A DNA stretch of 64,000 nt from Candidatus Melainabacteria bacterium (lineage in GTDB: Bacteria > Cyanobacteriota > Vampirovibrionia > Obscuribacterales > Obscuribacteraceae): assembly GCA_003963305.1 (NCBI GenBank), contig RXJR01000001.1:1-64000 (forward strand), in the 5' to 3' direction. Under the pieces are notes generated by a model that searched no databases, was not told the origin of the DNA, and saw nothing but the letters and a program-made list of their open reading frames with translations. Below, piece after piece: positions 48,269-58,500 of the stretch (positions are counted from its first letter, which is position 1; every line of letters starts with the position of its first letter). A program made the position numbers and the translations under genes.

Positions 48269-48502
48269 TGAAACATCCTTTAGAACGAATTATGCTCGCA
48301 TGATTCTTGGACCAAAATCATGAGAACCTGCTCAAACGGAATGCCAGAGTAGATTAGCATTTATTGATGTTGTCAACAGAGGAGTCCGATACGGTTTGGC
48401 TCACCGGTGACCGGAGTAGTGTCCTCAATTCGAGAGGTAATAAACTACTCATCTTCGTTACAGCCAAACACAAGAGTCGGGATAAGCGCGATCATAGATG
48501 AC

Positions 48503-48545
48503 TGCGAGAAGCCACGAGAACAGGGCGAGGAGCCATGAGATCAGG
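48503..48545. repeat. Two tandem 21-bp units upstream of the oxygenase-like gene
   Basis: GCGAGAAGCCACGAGAACAGG is followed by GCGAGGAGCCATGAGATCAGG, 17 of 21 bases identical. Read in frame they would encode ARSHENR-ARSHEIR at the extreme N-terminus if the upstream start (48498) is used. Confidence 0.6.
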
Positions 48546-48593
48546 CGGAATCGCAACTCTGATTCCAACTCATTTTCAGTTTCGGTCGAACCC

Positions 48594-49271
48594 ATGCAAC
48601 TGCAACTACTTCAAGAAATTCCAGTTTTGAGCGCCGACGAGTGCGATCGAGTCAGACTTTCTGTTCACGAACTCAAACCGCTGTGGGACGAAGAGCGCTA
48701 TCGGTTCGGTGCAGGTATTTCCTATTACAAGCCGCAAGCTCTCTACTATGCCACCGCAAAACAGATGAATCCGATCCTCAAGAGGCACTTTGGTTGGCTC
48801 TATGAGAAGCTTTTGACAGCCTTCTCCGCTCAATTCAAACGCCCAGTTGTCTTTCGAGACGACCTTGCCTTGCCCGGTTTCAACATTTATTGCGGTCCTT
48901 CAGACTTCTCCAAAATTGCCTACAACGTGCACGTCGATTTGCAATATCTCGATTTGAATTGGGACCCGCCAGGCTCTGCCGACTTCGACAGCACAATGTC
49001 ATTCACCCTTCCAATTACCGCACCGCGTCAAGGCACCGGTCTCAATATCTGGGAAGTTACTCAACTGAGCGACGAGCAGTTCGCGAAATCTGATGCCCTT
49101 TCTGACGAAAAAGCTTACTATCACTCTTATAAACCAGGTACTGCTACCATCCACGATGGCAAGCATTACCATCAAATGCAAATCACCAGTGACTGGGAGA
49201 GTTCCGACGAACGAATCACCCTGCAAGGACACGGACTTGTGCAGAACGGTGCACTGGTCATTTATGGTTGA
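48594..49271 (+). CDS. 2OG-Fe(II) oxygenase-like protein
   Basis: 225 residues from ATG 48594 (an upstream ATG at 48498 would add 32 residues). VPVLSADECDRVR-type N-terminus, then a double-stranded beta-helix pattern: YNVHVDLQY with an HxD metal pair, TIHDGKHYHQM with candidate distal His, and ERITLQGHG with the Arg that usually binds 2-oxoglutarate. It could hydroxylate a peptide or glycan. Its end overlaps the start of the next GT4 gene by eight bases. The motif set is visible, the substrate is not. Confidence 0.65.
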   Translation: MQLQLLQEIPVLSADECDRVRLSVHELKPLWDEERYRFGAGISYYKPQALYYATAKQMNPILKRHFGWLYEKLLTAFSAQFKRPVVFRDDLALPGFNIYCGPSDFSKIAYNVHVDLQYLDLNWDPPGSADFDSTMSFTLPITAPRQGTGLNIWEVTQLSDEQFAKSDALSDEKAYYHSYKPGTATIHDGKHYHQMQITSDWESSDERITLQGHGLVQNGALVIYG

Positions 49272-50481
49272 GACACACCGACCACTGCGTGTTCTCTATG
49301 TCGATCACACAGCGAAGCTGAGTGGGGGCGAAATTGCATTATTGAACCTGTTGCGAGTCATCGACCGTAGTGCAGTCGAGCCGCATGTATTGCTATTTTC
49401 GAAAGGTCCACTGCAATCACTTCTCACTGACTCTTCTGTAACCACACATCTTTTAGAGATGGATAACGAAGTGCTGGAAACGCGGAAAGAATCTCTGGGC
49501 GTTAATTCCATCTTCAAACTGAAAAAAATTGAGCTTGTCGTATCGCAAATCTGGAAAGTCTTCAAGTTCATACGCGAAAACAAAATCGACATTGTTCACA
49601 CCAATTCATTGAAATCTGACGTGATTGCCGGGATATCAGCAAAATTAGCTGGAGTTCCGCTGATCTGGCACATTCGTGACCGCATCGACGGTGACTATTT
49701 ACCGGCCAAAGTAGCGTCCACATTTAAACTCTCAGCCAAAATCATTCCAGATCTCGTCATCGCCAACTCCTATGCCACTCTCTCATCCCTCAATGACAAC
49801 CAGGTGAAAACGAACGGGCATGAGATCGTCGTTCATGATGGTACACCGTTAGCCCAGGCGCTGCTGCACAGGCAGATGAGCAAACGAAAAGATGGTAACA
49901 CCACGATTGGTATCATCGGCAGAATCAGTCCCTGGAAGGGGCAACACATTTTTCTGCAGGCCGCCCAGCAAATCAACCGCCAGTTTCCGGAAGTTCGGTT
50001 CAAAATTGTCGGTTCGGCAATGTTTGATGAACAGGCTTATGAAAAGCAGATTCGACAATTAGCAACAGATCTGCTGCTAGACGAGGTTGTCGAATTTACC
50101 GGATTCAGAGAAGACGTCGCCCAGGTACTAGACGAGTTGGACATAGTAGTGCATGCGTCAACAACCGGAGAACCCTTTGGACAAGTTATCGTTGAAGCAA
50201 TGTCGGCCGGCAGACCCGTCGTTGCAACCAATGGCGGTGGCGTACCGGAAATCGTAAATAGTCAGTCAGTCGGTCTGCTTGTACCGATGAATAATGCCGA
50301 CGCAATCACAGAAGCTTTGAAGCGCTTGATTTCAGATCCGAACTATGCCTCGACATTAGGTGAAGCTGGACGACAACACGTTCTTCAGAATTTCACCATT
50401 GAAAAAACCGCTCGCGGCATTGAGCAGGCCTACAGCAAACTGACATCAACCGCTAAGCAAACGCGGCCGATTCATAGCTGA
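49264..50481 (+). CDS. GT4-family glycosyltransferase
   Basis: 405 residues from ATG 49264. LRVLYVDHTAKLSGGEIALL at the N-terminus (acceptor side), HTNSLKSDVIAGISAKLAG, IGIIGRISPWKGQHIFLQA, VEFTGFREDVAQVLDELD and GQVIVEAMSAGRPVVATNGGG with the E-x7-E region and GLLVPMNNADAI. A complete GT-B enzyme. Coupled to the oxygenase-like gene; its 3' end overlaps that of the convergent ATP-grasp gene by 29 bases. Confidence 0.92.
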   Translation: MVETHRPLRVLYVDHTAKLSGGEIALLNLLRVIDRSAVEPHVLLFSKGPLQSLLTDSSVTTHLLEMDNEVLETRKESLGVNSIFKLKKIELVVSQIWKVFKFIRENKIDIVHTNSLKSDVIAGISAKLAGVPLIWHIRDRIDGDYLPAKVASTFKLSAKIIPDLVIANSYATLSSLNDNQVKTNGHEIVVHDGTPLAQALLHRQMSKRKDGNTTIGIIGRISPWKGQHIFLQAAQQINRQFPEVRFKIVGSAMFDEQAYEKQIRQLATDLLLDEVVEFTGFREDVAQVLDELDIVVHASTTGEPFGQVIVEAMSAGRPVVATNGGGVPEIVNSQSVGLLVPMNNADAITEALKRLISDPNYASTLGEAGRQHVLQNFTIEKTARGIEQAYSKLTSTAKQTRPIHS

Positions 50482-51457
50482 CCAGAGCTTCGCTTTTTCC
50501 GGCAAGGAGAAGGGCTAGCTCTTTCGACAGGGGCACTTTAGTCAAATTCTCAAGCCACATATATTGGCCGGCGGGATTGATTTCCAGAAAGACATAACGC
50601 CCCTCGGTATCCAGACAAAAATCTATCGCCCCGTAATTAAGCCCGAGCCGGCGCAGCAATTGCAAACACTTCTCCGAGAGCTGATCTGGCAATTCACAGA
50701 CTCGCATGGGCACATCGTAGTCGGTTCGCCAATCCAATTTTCCAGAACCGGACTGACTTTCAATATGAAAAGCAAAGAGCTTTTTACCAATCACAGTAAC
50801 TCTGATGTCGGCATTTTTCTCAATCTTCTGCTGAAACAAATGTGGTGCGTGACGGACCTGATCGAGATGAGCTAAATCCACCTCTCGCACGGGCAAGGTA
50901 GGAATACCATGCGGAAACTCGAATTGGGGCAGAAAAAAATTGCTCTTCTCCGTCACCAACTTATAGATCACTTGCCCTTTGTGCTTTTCGTAAAAGGCTC
51001 TCGCAAACTCAGGGTCGTTTGTGACGATGGTTTCCGGGACAGATATGCCCAGGGTTTTCGCCACCTCAAGCTGAAAGAGTTTTAACGAAGCCGCCGCATC
51101 ACGAGCCGGGTAATTCACCCAGAGACAGGGCATGGAGTAAAGCATGCCATACAAAGCGTTGTGAGCCTCGGTTTCGACAACTGCAGATACCCATGGCTGA
51201 AAAAAGCGTTTTGATTGTGGGGCTCCTGGTCTCCGGAACCAGATCGAATCAAAAGACGAAACGTCTATAGAGCGACCATCTTGATTGAACCTAAAGACGC
51301 GTTGGCCCTCATCCGTAACAAATTCAAGCTTGCAATCATGGACGAACGGTTCAAATTTCCAGTAAGTGACGCTCGCGTCCCATTCGCTCAAATGTTGTGC
51401 CACCCGCACGGCGTGGGCATCTTCGGGCGACGACAAAATAAGTACTCTACTCGACAT
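50453..51457 (-). CDS. ATP-grasp peptide ligase of the MvdC/MvdD (graspetide) family
   Basis: 334 residues from ATG 51457. Features of the microviridin/graspetide ligases: VLILSSPEDAHAVRVAQHL, FDSIWFRRPGAP (72-80), LWVNYPARDAAASLKLFQL, VPETIVTNDPEFARAF, GQVIYKLVTE, an Asp in YGAIDFCLD and EINPAGQYMWLE (292 onwards), with the metal-binding Glu/Asn. These enzymes join acidic side chains to Ser/Thr or Lys side chains in a small precursor peptide. It starts nine bases after the stop of a 68-72 residue peptide gene, its likely substrate. Confidence 0.88.
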   Translation of the reverse strand: MSSRVLILSSPEDAHAVRVAQHLSEWDASVTYWKFEPFVHDCKLEFVTDEGQRVFRFNQDGRSIDVSSFDSIWFRRPGAPQSKRFFQPWVSAVVETEAHNALYGMLYSMPCLWVNYPARDAAASLKLFQLEVAKTLGISVPETIVTNDPEFARAFYEKHKGQVIYKLVTEKSNFFLPQFEFPHGIPTLPVREVDLAHLDQVRHAPHLFQQKIEKNADIRVTVIGKKLFAFHIESQSGSGKLDWRTDYDVPMRVCELPDQLSEKCLQLLRRLGLNYGAIDFCLDTEGRYVFLEINPAGQYMWLENLTKVPLSKELALLLAGKSEALVSYESAAFA

Positions 51458-51466
51458 CACAACCAA

Positions 51467-51685
51467 CTAATAGCTTTGATCGACGGTACCGACGTCGCAC
51501 AGAGGATCAGAGTGCAGCGACCAGAGGGGAGACGTTACTCCTGATTCTTTGGTCCACACCAGACCTTCATTTTCAATAAAATTGCGCAGCCACCAGGCAC
51601 GCAAAAAAAAGGGCAGCTCATCGGCTTCTTCTTGACGTGAAAGTACTTTTTCAGAAGCGCCGTCACCACTCATAGTGCCTTCCAT
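51467..51685 (-). CDS. Candidate graspetide precursor peptide
   Basis: 72 residues, or 68 from the second ATG at 51673, which has GGAAGG before it. From that start, residues 19-37 are ELPFFLRAWWLRNFIENEG, which resembles the PFFARFLE helix by which microviridin leaders bind their ligase. A short C-terminal segment (41-68) rich in Ser, Thr, Asp and Trp (TSPLWSLHSDPLCD, VGTVDQSY) is a plausible core. It directly precedes the ATP-grasp gene. The core does not match known microviridin cores (TxKxPSD). Confidence 0.7.
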   Translation of the reverse strand: MEGTMSGDGASEKVLSRQEEADELPFFLRAWWLRNFIENEGLVWTKESGVTSPLWSLHSDPLCDVGTVDQSY

Positions 51686-51755
51686 GAAAACTCAACTCAT
51701 TTGAATAGTCTAGTCTAAACTAAACCAGATAAAAAAACGGTTGCACCAGAGCTTT

Positions 51756-53102
51756 ATGCCAGAGATAGAAGAACGAGTTGCCATTATTGCCCTGGACGGA
51801 TTGTCGCTCGGGCAATTCGAACAGCTACAAGCACTGATGCCGCTATGCGCCGCTCTCCTGAAAAATGGGCACCTGCAACAACTCGATGCCACACCATTCT
51901 CCGACGCCCATCCGATCTGGGCAGAAATTTTGACCGGCGAACCGTGGTATAGCAATGGCTGTGTGGGCTACGCCACCCTTCAAAAATCATTGAACGAGTT
52001 GCGCTTGTTTCGCGAGAATGATCTGCTCTGTCCAGTAACCTTGCTGCCTGAAGTTGCAGCAGAACAAAGAAATATCGTTATCAATGTGCCTCTGCTCGAA
52101 CCGCGAGAGCATGAAAGAATCTGGCTCGCAGAAGCAAGTTCAGCCGTTGTCACGCATGTCTCTCCAGCATCATTACAAAGAGACAAAACATTCGCCGACT
52201 ACAAACCAAGACCGATTCTAAGTATGGGGCTTGCCATGGCTGATCACTTAGCGGTGACCAGGTTCATCGAGTGTGAACTGAACAGACTGGCATGCGCTAC
52301 GGCACTCATTGAATCGAACTGGAAATCGTTTGTATACAGAATCACTATATTCGATCAATTGATTCATCTGCTCGGCAATGGCTTTCTGGATGCGACCCTG
52401 ATTTGTTCGGCTCAAATCAGGTCAATGCTGGCAAAACTCGACAAAGGTTTGAGTCAAATTTTGTCGCATTCCAGCCGCTTCATTTTTCTTTCGGCCTTTT
52501 CTCACACCACTTGCAAAGAGATATTTAGCCTCAACGACTTCTTTGAAGATCGGGGCTTGCAAGAAAAAGCCACCATCGATCAAAAATCGAAGCAGGCTCA
52601 ACTTCGCCAACAAGCGTTCATGCTGATTCAGGATGAAAACGGCCCACCGCTGGTATCAGCCGACAAACAAATACTCCTCGCCAAAACCAAGTGCGCGTCG
52701 CCGATTCGCGGAGCCGTATATATAAATGACAGTGAACGCTTTTCTGAAGGCAGCATCGATTCATCTGCCGTTCGTACCCAGGTGGATATCGTTGCAAACC
52801 TGCTGGCGTCGGAGTTTAGAAGATTCCCGACCTTCAAAAAGTTGATTTGTAATCCTATTTATATCGATGCTGATCAACAAACATCTGAGACACGAAAAAC
52901 CGTTACGAGGCTGTCGCTTCCTGATCTGATCGTAGACGTGCCTGGGCTTGATTTTGTTGAGAATCTCGATGCGATCAGCAGAGGCTATGATTTGCCACCA
53001 TCCGTTCACACCTCTTCCGGCTTTGTATGGTCTATGACGCACAGCGACAAAGGCACTTCAATCAAATCTTTTGAAGTCGCAAATCTGCTCAGTCGCACTT
53101 AG
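51756..53102 (+). CDS. Diverged alkaline-phosphatase-superfamily protein
   Basis: 448 residues from ATG 51756. VAIIALDGLSLGQFEQL (metal Asp 14) and IWAEILTG resemble type I phosphodiesterases/nucleotide pyrophosphatases, and FDQLIHLLG matches the D-x-x-x-H motif. The usual Thr/Ser nucleophile position (four before Trp 55) is Ala, HGI is SNG, and SDHG is replaced by SAFSH. Catalysis may be lost or altered. It is transcribed away from the peptide/ATP-grasp pair and towards the PqqD-like gene, from which 86 bp separate it. Confidence 0.68.
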   Translation: MPEIEERVAIIALDGLSLGQFEQLQALMPLCAALLKNGHLQQLDATPFSDAHPIWAEILTGEPWYSNGCVGYATLQKSLNELRLFRENDLLCPVTLLPEVAAEQRNIVINVPLLEPREHERIWLAEASSAVVTHVSPASLQRDKTFADYKPRPILSMGLAMADHLAVTRFIECELNRLACATALIESNWKSFVYRITIFDQLIHLLGNGFLDATLICSAQIRSMLAKLDKGLSQILSHSSRFIFLSAFSHTTCKEIFSLNDFFEDRGLQEKATIDQKSKQAQLRQQAFMLIQDENGPPLVSADKQILLAKTKCASPIRGAVYINDSERFSEGSIDSSAVRTQVDIVANLLASEFRRFPTFKKLICNPIYIDADQQTSETRKTVTRLSLPDLIVDVPGLDFVENLDAISRGYDLPPSVHTSSGFVWSMTHSDKGTSIKSFEVANLLSRT

Positions 53103-53188: not shown

Positions 53189-53464
53189 ATGATGAGACCT
53201 AAACGAAATCCTGATGTCCAAACGAAAATGCTTCCTGATGGTCATGTTGTGATCTTCAGTAAGCAAAGTGATTGGGCCCACACAATTACTCCTCTGGCTG
53301 CTATTGCCTGGGAGTTCTGCGATGGAGAGCATTCCGTTGACGAGATAGTGAGCCAGGTTCTGGCTTACAGCTCCGACTCAACAGCCGCCGAGATTCAGCC
53401 TGCTATTTGCGAACTGTTAAATGATTTTGCACAGGGTGGTCTCGTTTCCGATACAAGTGCTTAA
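53189..53464 (+). CDS. PqqD-like RiPP recognition protein
   Basis: 91 residues of PqqD type: KRNPDVQTKMLPDGHVVIFS, TPLAAIAWEFCDGEHSVDEI, then VLAYSS and an amphipathic helix (IQPAICELLNDFAQGGLV). PqqD-like domains bind leader peptides and present them to modifying enzymes. The next gene encodes a short exported peptide, a likely client. GGTGAG precedes the ATG. No radical SAM or cyclodehydratase partner is adjacent. Confidence 0.87.
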   Translation: MMRPKRNPDVQTKMLPDGHVVIFSKQSDWAHTITPLAAIAWEFCDGEHSVDEIVSQVLAYSSDSTAAEIQPAICELLNDFAQGGLVSDTSA

Positions 53465-53619
53465 TTTCTAAGCGTCCGCAAACCCTGATGAACAGGGACT
53501 TTCAATGCCAGACACTTGTCATGCGCTCAAGATCGACTTCGGAGATAGTTGCAGGTTAAAAGTCGAAGTACTATAGTTAATCTGTTCGAAAATGCTTCCT
53601 AGTGAAATGGATAAACGAA

Positions 53620-53937
53620 ATGCCTGATAATTTGAGACAAGAAGCAGATGTCAATACAACTGCTTGCGACGAAAGTCTTAGCCGCAAAGAATTCCTTACT
53701 AAGCTGGTACAAAAGGCAGCTCTAGCAGGCTCCCTTGTAGCAGCACCAAAAATCATCGATAAGTTCCTCGTACCTCCCGCACTCGCGGTAAACAGTACGC
53801 AGCACTTCCATGATAGCCATGCGCCACTGAGAAATCCAGCAACTGGTGGTACCACCGGACCTGCTGGAAAAACAGTTCCTAGCAACACCCAGAAACAAGC
53901 TCCTCAAGCTCCCGAAGACAACGGCGGCTGGGGTTAG
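53620..53937 (+). CDS. Short exported peptide with Tat-like signal, candidate RiPP precursor
   Basis: 105 residues from ATG 53620. SRKEFLTK (21-28) resembles a twin-arginine motif with Arg-Lys, followed by a hydrophobic stretch (ALAGSLVAAPKI) and PPALA (52-56), a likely signal-peptidase site. The remaining ~49 residues are Pro/Thr/Gly/Asn-rich, with HFHDSH and a C-terminal EDNGGWG. It lies 155 bp after the PqqD-like gene. It may be modified through that protein and then exported. No known precursor family matches. Confidence 0.65.
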   Translation: MPDNLRQEADVNTTACDESLSRKEFLTKLVQKAALAGSLVAAPKIIDKFLVPPALAVNSTQHFHDSHAPLRNPATGGTTGPAGKTVPSNTQKQAPQAPEDNGGWG

Positions 53938-56215: not shown

Positions 56216-57574
56216 TCAGCCTGACGATCCGATTTGTCTTTCAGGCCAGATCAACTGCCCAAAGGTGCGGCGCACCACACCGCCCGGCAATAATATAACG
56301 AACCAGTGCAGGATCAAGGCTCGCAAATAATCAACGAAGTTCATTGTTCGGCCTGCCAGATAGTAAGCGGAAAGAAAAGACTTATCGGGGAAAAACGAAC
56401 GCCTGAGCACATTCATCTTCCGCGTCGAATCGTCGGATACCGCCGCGTTTGCAAGCAACATCGGTAAGCTGCTTGTATTCCAATAAAAAAGTGGTGTGAC
56501 CGTAAATGCAAGCAGGCGCTTCGAAATATTTTGACCAGTGGCGCCGGTCTCGCTAATCACGTCATCAATTCCGCTCAGGCCAAGCCGTTCGCGCGCCAAA
56601 CTCAGACCAGCACAGCATGCCGTTGATAAGCCCTCAACCTGACATCGTCTGACAAATTCTTTCCAGCCTTGAGGATGCAGATTTATTTTTTCGGCTAGCA
56701 ATTTGATGTCCAACAATTGTTTCCATCCAATAAATCTATCTTTCTCCAGGTGAGTAAGCGAAATCAAAAGCTGATCTAGCAATCCGGGTGAGAGAAAGGT
56801 TCGACCGCGCCAGGGAACACTCTCAACTTCTGAGAGAAAGCGATCCAATTCAATCATTTTCAAACCACGATCGAGTGGATTGAATTTGATATCAACGATC
56901 GGACAGCGATTCTTGAAATATCCAACCACCGCCGATGGCACTAATTCTTCGTTCGGTACGAGAAATAGACTATCCAGAGCCAGAACAGGCCCAACTCCCA
57001 GCTGATTACAAAAGCCGTAGTCATCAAGAATGACGTGAAAACCAGCAGCGACCAAAATTTCGTTCAGGTGAGTCAAATATCGAGATTGCAAAAAACAATC
57101 AAAATCACCAGAAAGCCTTTGAGCTGGTTCCCTGTAACAGGTGCGACTGGCGACAATGCCTTTCAGCCAGATAATTTCCGAACCAAGCGCTGCGGTTAGA
57201 TCAAGAAAATCAACAAATTTGTTGTCGAACTTTTCGAATTTGATAGCCTCGAGAGCTGACTGACGTGAGATCGCCGTAAACAGATCAACTTCGCCACCAT
57301 CCAGGGTGACGAAAATTTTGCGAAATATTGCTTCCAACTTAAGCAAATAAATAGATTCCAGAACGTAACCACCCAGCTCGTTCTCAATTAACATTTGCAA
57401 AAAAAGATTGGCTGATTCGGCAGTTTGGCTTGCCAGAATGGCGTCGGTCGATGAGCTACGTCCAAGCATAAACGCCATCAAACGCTCTGCAAGGCTGAGT
57501 TGATTCACCGCGGGCATCGTAAAAATGCGCCACGAGCTCCCACTTTGCCTAAACAAATATTTCGTTAAGTCCAT
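56216..57574 (-). CDS. Nucleotidyltransferase family protein (NTP_transf_5 / PF14907-like)
   Basis: 452 residues. IWLKGIVASRTCYREPAQRL and GDFDCFLQ (Gly-Asp-x-Asp) match the LKG and GDxD motifs of this family. The rest is helical with VPSAVVGYFKNRCPIVDIKF and DIKLLAEKINLHP in the expected positions. Members sit next to PqqD-like proteins in lasso-peptide and polysaccharide (HPr-rel-A, exosortase) loci and are thought to modify a peptide or glycan. It is convergent with the metallophosphoesterase gene. Confidence 0.8.
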   Translation of the reverse strand: MDLTKYLFRQSGSSWRIFTMPAVNQLSLAERLMAFMLGRSSSTDAILASQTAESANLFLQMLIENELGGYVLESIYLLKLEAIFRKIFVTLDGGEVDLFTAISRQSALEAIKFEKFDNKFVDFLDLTAALGSEIIWLKGIVASRTCYREPAQRLSGDFDCFLQSRYLTHLNEILVAAGFHVILDDYGFCNQLGVGPVLALDSLFLVPNEELVPSAVVGYFKNRCPIVDIKFNPLDRGLKMIELDRFLSEVESVPWRGRTFLSPGLLDQLLISLTHLEKDRFIGWKQLLDIKLLAEKINLHPQGWKEFVRRCQVEGLSTACCAGLSLARERLGLSGIDDVISETGATGQNISKRLLAFTVTPLFYWNTSSLPMLLANAAVSDDSTRKMNVLRRSFFPDKSFLSAYYLAGRTMNFVDYLRALILHWFVILLPGGVVRRTFGQLIWPERQIGSSG

Positions 57575-57774
57575 CTCTCAAAAGTGCGTCAAAGCGCATG
57601 TCTGCAGAAGGTGTATTTGTCCTGTCGGAACGCAATGCAGTGTAAACATAACTGATACAAAGGGGTAGTTGAAAGAATCTTACTACGAACAAACAGTTGT
57701 CAGTAAGGCGCAGTCTAAACACCTACTGTATACTCGTGCACATAACTTGTTTACTAGCTGTTCAAAGATTTGGA

Positions 57775-58500
57775 ATGCCAATGCCTTCGGAAACCGTCGC
57801 CAGAGTCGCAGAAAAATTTGAGGCGCAGGAGAGGCGGCCTGTCGAGTACGCTCGAGTCGCAGAGAACACAACCAAACGGTTAATAGATATTTGTGTGGCA
57901 GTGGTCGGATTGACCCTGAGCGCTCCCGTCCTGCTTTTCTTTCTCGCGCTCGTGGCTTTGGAAAGCCCCGGCAGTCCAATTTATATTCAAAAACGAATCG
58001 GCCGGAATGGACAAATTTTCGATATTTACAAACTTCGCACAATGTTTTCCGGTGCCGATACCGACGGCTTTAAAACAGCAAAAGACGATCGCAGATTAAC
58101 GGTTACCGGCAAATTACTTCGGGCTACAAACATCGATGAATTGCCGCAGCTCGTCAATGTTTTAAATGGTGATATGTCGCTGATCGGTCCGCGACCGTTG
58201 TCTGTAGACGAAACGGAATACATCATCAAACACTTCAACATCTGGTCGTCATATCCAGGCTTTTTCCCTAGCGCTAGACCCGGTCTTGTCGGTCTAGAAC
58301 AGGTCAATCGAAACAAAGAAATGACTTACCTGGAGCGCTTCAGTTACAACAACGAGTACGAGACCAACTGGAGTCTCTACTTAGATGGTCAGATCTTCAT
58401 CAAGGCGCTGATAATCTGCCGCCATGTTTGTTACGCACTGATGGCCGGTGGAGCACTGCTCTTATCATTGATGGCAGCTGGAATCACCCTGGCGGGCTAA
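57775..58500 (+). CDS. Initiating sugar-phosphate transferase (polyprenyl-phosphate glycosyl-1-P transferase)
   Basis: 241 residues from ATG 57775. KRLIDICVAVVGLTLSAP, YIQKRIGRNGQIFDIYKLRT, DELPQLVNVLNGDMSLIGPR and the following P complete the bacterial sugar transferase signature (WcaJ/PglC-like catalytic domain). A further hydrophobic segment ends the protein (RHVCYALMAGGALLLSLMAA), which is uncommon. It transfers a sugar-1-phosphate from UDP-sugar to undecaprenyl phosphate to start exopolysaccharide synthesis. Confidence 0.93.
   Translation: MPMPSETVARVAEKFEAQERRPVEYARVAENTTKRLIDICVAVVGLTLSAPVLLFFLALVALESPGSPIYIQKRIGRNGQIFDIYKLRTMFSGADTDGFKTAKDDRRLTVTGKLLRATNIDELPQLVNVLNGDMSLIGPRPLSVDETEYIIKHFNIWSSYPGFFPSARPGLVGLEQVNRNKEMTYLERFSYNNEYETNWSLYLDGQIFIKALIICRHVCYALMAGGALLLSLMAAGITLAG

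Follow-up and report, generated by a model that had tools for sequence, protein, structure and literature searches.

The window analysed here is a stretch of 64,000 nucleotides from an uncultured, non-photosynthetic relative of Cyanobacteria belonging to the order Obscuribacterales. Two neighbouring genes on its reverse strand, one encoding a small peptide (51467..51685) and the other an ATP-grasp ligase that resembles MvdC and MvdD (50453..51466), are the subject of this study. Translation of the peptide from the ATG at 51685 would yield 72 residues, and translation from a second ATG at 51673 would yield 68; because GGAAGG lies four bases ahead of the second ATG, we consider the 68-residue form the likelier product, and its residue numbers are used throughout. 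The ligase gene, with its stop at 50453, encodes 337 amino acids if translation begins at the TTG (51466) that immediately follows the stop of the peptide gene, and 334 if it begins at the ATG at 51457. A first-pass annotation of this DNA had described a peptide of 68-72 residues that contains ELPFFLRAWWLRNF and ends nine bases before an ATP-grasp gene bearing the motifs IWFRRP and EINPAGQYMWLE. Both genes and all of these motifs are indeed in place, and the nine-base gap holds for the ligase start at 51457.

A profile built from 14 sequences of the putative precursor peptide was run on 53 Obscuribacterales genomes and returned 16 matches in 11 of them. All 16 adjoin an ATP-grasp, MvdC/MvdD-like ligase of the same family as that of the window; at a copy located at a contig edge (G032), only the end of the ligase gene is on the contig. 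Orthologous peptide genes, compared within the same genus and among three genomes of another genus, differ mostly at third codon positions (pN 0.06-0.28 against pS 0.56-0.83 per site), and this contrast is gone in both shifted frames, which disposes of the possibility, raised in the first-pass annotation, that the frame is non-coding. The peptide is under strong purifying selection. A chance open reading frame beside the ligase is ruled out by the codon-level conservation together with the 16 family members.

The family appears to be confined to this order. A phylum-wide search of 386 genomes gave a precursor match in the window's own genome only, and precursor patterns run on 84,980 species genomes yielded 11 loci, all in metagenome-assembled genomes of Cyanobacteria, Melainabacteria or Obscuribacterales except for one labelled Chloroflexi. 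This last genome (L049, SBAT01000412.1) carries an Obscuribacterales cassette, and its peptide is identical to that of G032. Because G032 is a member of the window's own family, we doubt the Chloroflexi label, which looks like a naming artefact, and read the genome as belonging to that same family. A wider host range was therefore rejected, this presumably mislabelled genome being the only outlier of the scan. A viral origin was likewise rejected, as relatives are absent from viral contigs and there is no PHROG match.

The ligase and its pairing with the peptide

The enzyme had previously been called a microviridin-type ligase, and the family models bear this out: it scored 254 bits against TIGR04187, 193 against MvdD, 182 against MvdC and 47 against RimK, and the MvdD pre-ATP-grasp domain (PF21068) was found above its cut-off. 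The first of these scores lies below the curated cut-off of TIGR04187 (350 bits), which was exceeded in none of the 53 Obscuribacterales genomes, and the scores for MvdD and MvdC lie far below their equivalog cut-offs. Among solved structures, the sequence matched MdnB, CdnC, PruB, MdnC, AMdnB and PsnB. An AlphaFold2 model (mean pLDDT 88.6) had as its best structural match MdnC bound to MdnA (5ig9; TM 0.84); ranks 1-32 were all graspetide ligases, and RimK appeared from rank 33 on. The conserved ATP-grasp residues K166, R219, R244, D279, E292 and N294 are identical in 15/15 ligases, as is Asp194, which lies in a stretch aligning with an MdnC segment that we take to be near the MdnC leader site.

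Together, the family models, the sequence matches to solved structures and the predicted fold lend good support to a putative role as graspetide synthetase. The scores and the fold rule out a RimK-type ligase. More broadly, an amino-acid ligase of RimK or LysX kind, adding residues to the peptide or to a partner and closing no ring, might be suggested by the weak RimK match and the related fold; we regard it as very improbable, given that the graspetide models score far higher, that PF21068 is present, that graspetide ligases take the first 32 places among the structure matches, and that a peptide with a PFF leader is paired with the enzyme.

In a phylogenetic analysis, the peptide-bearing ligases formed one clade within the phylum with support of 100/100, and support was 96/98 after ligases of Herpetosiphon, Burkholderia, Bradyrhizobium and Streptomyces had been added. 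The first-pass annotation had reasoned that homologous ligases without an adjacent LPFF-containing peptide would speak against the pairing; 14 of the 15 ligases of the clade have the peptide. The exception (L026, also L035; G002 C144 30661-31641) is nested in the clade, with neither precursor nor cassette genes recognised nearby, and a motif search for precursors near this ligase and near L003 and L023 found none. In cyanobacteria, this upstream scan picked up microviridin precursors of the form PFFARFL...KYPSDWEEY, indicating that the scan works. Precursor and ligase are always on one strand, with a single ligase per cassette. The distance matrices of precursor and ligase are correlated (r = 0.74), but all cassette genes correlate as well, so this value reflects shared inheritance rather than specific co-evolution.

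Leader, core and predicted linkages of the peptide

Across the 16 family members, the peptide consists of two conserved blocks separated by a variable linker and preceded by a variable N-terminus. The first, PFFLRAWWLR (residues 21-30; 51584..51613, reverse strand), is predicted from its conservation to be the helix recognised by the ligase. Its consensus is L/V/M20-P21-F22-F-L-R25-A-W27-W28-L-R30, i.e., [LVM]PFFLRAWWLR, with P21, F22 and W27 in 16/16 members and R25 and R30 in 15/16. It occupies the same position as PFFARFL in the microviridin precursors recovered by the same upstream scan, consistent with the likeness to the microviridin PFFARFLE helix that had been noted from the sequence of the window. 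A comparison of the precursor with a microviridin profile gave a match over 12 leader residues only (E 0.0028, probability 11%), so that homology to microviridins beyond the leader is unsupported. In PMC8939145, 174 graspetide families are set out together with a leader motif of general validity, Phhx(1,2)h; the present peptide is a short precursor with a leader of this type, adjoining a synthetase.

The second block, the predicted core (T47-D65, TSPLWSLHSDPLCDVGTVD; 51479..51535, reverse strand), has the consensus T47-x-P-L-W51-S52-x-H/Y-S55-D56-P57-x-C59-D60-(4)-D65, or T..LWS.[HY]SDP.CD in short. Asp56, Pro57 and Cys59 are present in 16/16 members, Asp60 and Ser55 in 15/16, and Ser52 in 13/16. 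Residue 47 is Thr in 11 members, Ser in three, Cys in one (G023) and Met in one (G030, with a Ser one position later). Conserved donor and acceptor residues, which would be looked for among homologues of a graspetide precursor, as the first-pass annotation had proposed, are found here as Thr or Ser at position 47 (14/16) together with Asp56 and Asp60.

We propose, with a probability of about 0.8, that the gene at 51467-51685 encodes a graspetide precursor, that the gene running from 50453 to 51457 or 51466 encodes its single synthetase, and that the core is closed into omega-ester macrocycles. The ligase would bind the leader helix PFFLRAWWLR and use ATP to phosphorylate Asp residues of the C-terminal core on their side chains, and hydroxyl side chains would attack the phosphorylated Asp residues to form the esters. 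We infer both that this reaction takes place and which residues it would join. Positions 47 and 56 are the sole combination of donor and acceptor that practically all members have retained, and an ester joining Thr/Ser47 with Asp56 is therefore predicted for all of them; this would be the most economical chemistry and is the best fit to the conservation. A second ester, from Ser52 to Asp60, may form where both residues are present, as they are in most members. Several points count against this explanation: ester chemistry leaves over the invariant Cys59, and Ser52 and Asp60, as possible donor and acceptor, fall short of being universal; the short microviridin match, the peptide-less clade member L026 and the lack of a recognised protease or exporter in the cassette weigh on the same side.

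Cys59 might instead be a nucleophile, as might Cys47 in G023, giving a thioester (thiolactone) in place of or besides the esters. The invariance of Cys59 and the Cys at position 47 of one member point in this direction, and the main text of PMC13097080 reports non-native thioesters for graspetide synthetases. We nevertheless think such a linkage improbable, since nearly every member has Thr or Ser at position 47 and since Cys59 is so close to Asp56 (three residues) and to Asp60 (one residue) that the ring would be awkward; this Cys may instead form a disulfide, bind a metal or contact a partner protein. The G023 precursor (L008/L040), which reads ICAPLWS and has Cys where its relatives have Thr or Ser, offers a natural test case for thioester formation.

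The core is conserved in orthologues and paralogues alike, and also between genera; a product with one fixed function (a signal, cofactor-like or cell-surface role) is therefore to be expected, rather than a diversifying antimicrobial. Such conservation, unusual for a natural product, and the lack of an evident leader-cleavage site or protease could also be accounted for if the peptide were a partner of the ligase, structural or regulatory, and its core were always left without cross-links. We give this little credence: the hydroxyl donors and Asp acceptors are conserved at fixed spacing, leader and core blocks are split by a variable linker, and microviridin cores are conserved likewise.

Genes surrounding the pair

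The pair lies in a conserved cassette that the first-pass annotation had missed. Fifteen loci were compared first, after which profiles of the individual genes were applied. Within about 8 kb and in shuffled order, the recurrent genes are the precursor and ligase, a phosphatase-fold protein, and the pair's usual companions, namely a second small peptide, a PqqD-like protein, an HprK-like kinase and an NTP_transf_5 protein. Neither a protease nor an exporter for product release was recognised in the cassette. In the window, the PqqD-like protein (53189..53464, forward strand; PF05402, 30.7 bits against a cut-off of 23.4), which is conserved in the cassette, may act as a peptide chaperone, and the nucleotidyltransferase-like NTP_transf_5 protein is encoded at 56216..57574 on the reverse strand (PF14907, 65 bits). 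The HprK-like gene is missing here, but the second cassette of this genome (C1, about 95-98 kb) has one. The ligases of these two cassettes are 46% identical, and the core motif is common to both.

Two further genes are noted. One at 57697..58500 (forward strand) resembles, by sequence appearance, an initiating sugar transferase; it is part of a surrounding polysaccharide region, recurs near several cassettes and was counted as context. The other, at 48498..49271 (forward strand), encodes a conserved protein without a Pfam match whose HxD...H...R residues suggest a possible Fe(II)/2-oxoglutarate oxygenase; it adjoins the ligase or lies close by at three loci, which cover all three species of the genus examined, and it was not found elsewhere.

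The phosphatase-fold protein (51741..53102, forward strand) was assigned, from Pfam (Phosphodiest) and its structural model, as a divergent member of the alkaline-phosphatase/NPP superfamily. Its family has 17 copies in the 53 Obscuribacterales genomes, and these are in exactly the 11 genomes that bear the precursor; the sole copy without a neighbouring precursor (G002 C72) is near a contig end. The model (pLDDT 83.8) matched phosphonoacetate hydrolase and NPP enzymes with a TM of about 0.5. Metal and nucleophile positions were assigned on the assumption that the general family pattern applies. Three metal-type residues (D205, H209 and H423) never vary, D19 is found in 13/14 and H255 in 12/14, and at the second site the metal Asp has given way to Ser, Gly or Ala. 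As no more than 3/14 have Thr at the presumed nucleophile position and one metal Asp is lost, an ordinary phosphodiesterase is doubtful; the protein might be a binding partner or have altered chemistry.

The second small peptide (53602..53937, forward strand; likely start at ATG 53620) has a leader-like segment, SRKEFL...AAPKIIDKFLVPPALA, and a variable tail. Members of its family share the segment (S/T)Rx(E/D)F...G..AAP.I.DKFLVPPA.A, which gives the impression of a Tat signal without the second Arg, followed by a variable tail that is short and sometimes Ser/Thr/Gly-rich. Other copies were seen at L093 9260-10171, L094 6816-7649 and L095 7910-8278. This peptide is more widespread than the ligase: three genomes (G018, G020 and G021) have it with PqqD and HprK genes and lack the ligase, and in two of the three it occurs in tandem copies. 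It could be the precursor of a separate, uncharacterised RiPP system.

These ligase-free genomes are also what would suggest that the second peptide is the main product of the cassette, made through PqqD, the HprK-like kinase and NTP_transf_5, with the LPFF peptide and its ligase as accessories (e.g., a regulator or carrier). Such an arrangement seems rather unlikely to us, in that precursor and phosphatase-fold genes go together in 11 genomes with the second peptide nearby, and in that the LPFF peptide has a strongly conserved core of its own. The PqqD-like protein, the HprK-like kinase, NTP_transf_5 and the phosphatase-fold protein may have as their substrate either the LPFF-derived product or the second peptide. 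A more speculative and decidedly tentative idea is a composite RiPP, in which a graspetide ring that includes the invariant Cys (as a thioester or Cys-bridged) would be further modified by the HprK-like kinase and NTP_transf_5, through phosphorylation or nucleotidylation, with PqqD as chaperone, the phosphatase-fold protein as obligatory partner, and a conserved role in the Obscuribacterales cell envelope.

Relationship to known graspetides

By every sequence criterion that could be tested, the assignment of this pair as a putative graspetide system, in a conserved and unusual cassette, is well supported. A close parallel is with the microviridins (group 1; MvdC/MvdD or MdnB/MdnC with MdnA), which share a PFF leader helix placed ahead of a linker and a C-terminal core, the ligase fold, and a Thr...Ser-Asp order in the core. 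Microviridins, however, have two tandem ligases of MvdC and MvdD type, a FARFL leader in place of FLRAWWLR, and a core of KYPSD type (T..KYPSD followed by acidic residues). As the first-pass annotation had stated, the window's system has one ligase and a core that does not match: TxxLWSx[HY]SDPxCD lacks Lys, KYPSD and any EE/ED pair, and it has an invariant DPxC. The ligases, too, form a clade separate from the cyanobacterial MvdC/MvdD-type enzymes.

The best NCBIfam model, TIGR04187 (GRASP_SAV_5884; tgmB, with tgmA and tgmC, in Actinomycetota), likewise describes a single ligase beside its precursor, but the window ligase falls under its cut-off, the precursor is different, and the tgmC methyltransferase was not recognised in the cassette. 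PruB (9bou), an actinobacterial ATP-grasp ligase from Streptomyces coelicolor, resembles the window ligase in fold, with 32% identity over the structural alignment, a likeness that concerns the ligase alone. The main text of PMC13097080, which covers 43 graspetide groups (RODEO) and partner-dependent synthetases, describes rosaritide and corallotide, whose synthetases also have a strictly co-occurring partner gene; there, a divergent isomerase of PpiC type, and a 2OG oxygenase with a predicted beta-lactamase, serve as partners, in contrast to the phosphatase-fold protein found here. HprK-related kinases, PqqD-like proteins and nucleotidyltransferases also meet in other peptide-modification loci, namely the HPr-rel-A and SynChlorMet cassettes and lasso clusters with HPr kinase, PqqD and nucleotidyltransferase. 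Matches of the cassette to the HPr-rel-A/SynChlorMet NCBIfam models were weak and under the cut-off, and the genes that recur in the cassette included neither a recognisable lasso cyclase nor a recognisable radical SAM enzyme.

The main text of PMC8939145 makes no mention of Melainabacteria, and that of PMC13097080 mentions neither Melainabacteria nor PqqD, HPr kinase, nucleotidyltransferase or phosphodiesterase; a literature search on RiPPs in this lineage found nothing relevant. Judged against these two main texts, as distinct from their supplementary group lists, the core type appears to be undescribed.

Other candidate graspetide genes were seen in passing. The window's genome has a third, divergent ligase (G000 C9 25580-26485; L029 7578-8522), which follows a 275-residue protein (L029 6758-7582) with a Thr/Asp-rich C-terminal half (TTDYAQETSIDITTDYSADE...). 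This protein, in which no clear repeats were found, may be a long precursor of a different type of graspetide. On plasmid pHAU01 of Herpetosiphon aurantiacus (L128, about 7.8 kb), an unannotated 52-residue open reading frame ending in PCTCTPWGGIDVD lies upstream of the ligase that gave the best match on a plasmid (36% identity), and it is plausibly an unrelated graspetide precursor.

These results extend graspetides, as predicted here, to the Obscuribacterales, non-photosynthetic relatives of Cyanobacteria, with a core motif unlike that of microviridins and a ligase clade of their own. Natural products seldom have a core conserved as tightly as the leader, and this suggests that the physiological role is a fixed one. 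Through the link with the phosphatase-fold protein and the usual association with PqqD, the HprK-like kinase and the nucleotidyltransferase, graspetide and kinase-decorated, lasso-type tailoring would come together in one locus, and the enzymes of the cassette are directly testable.
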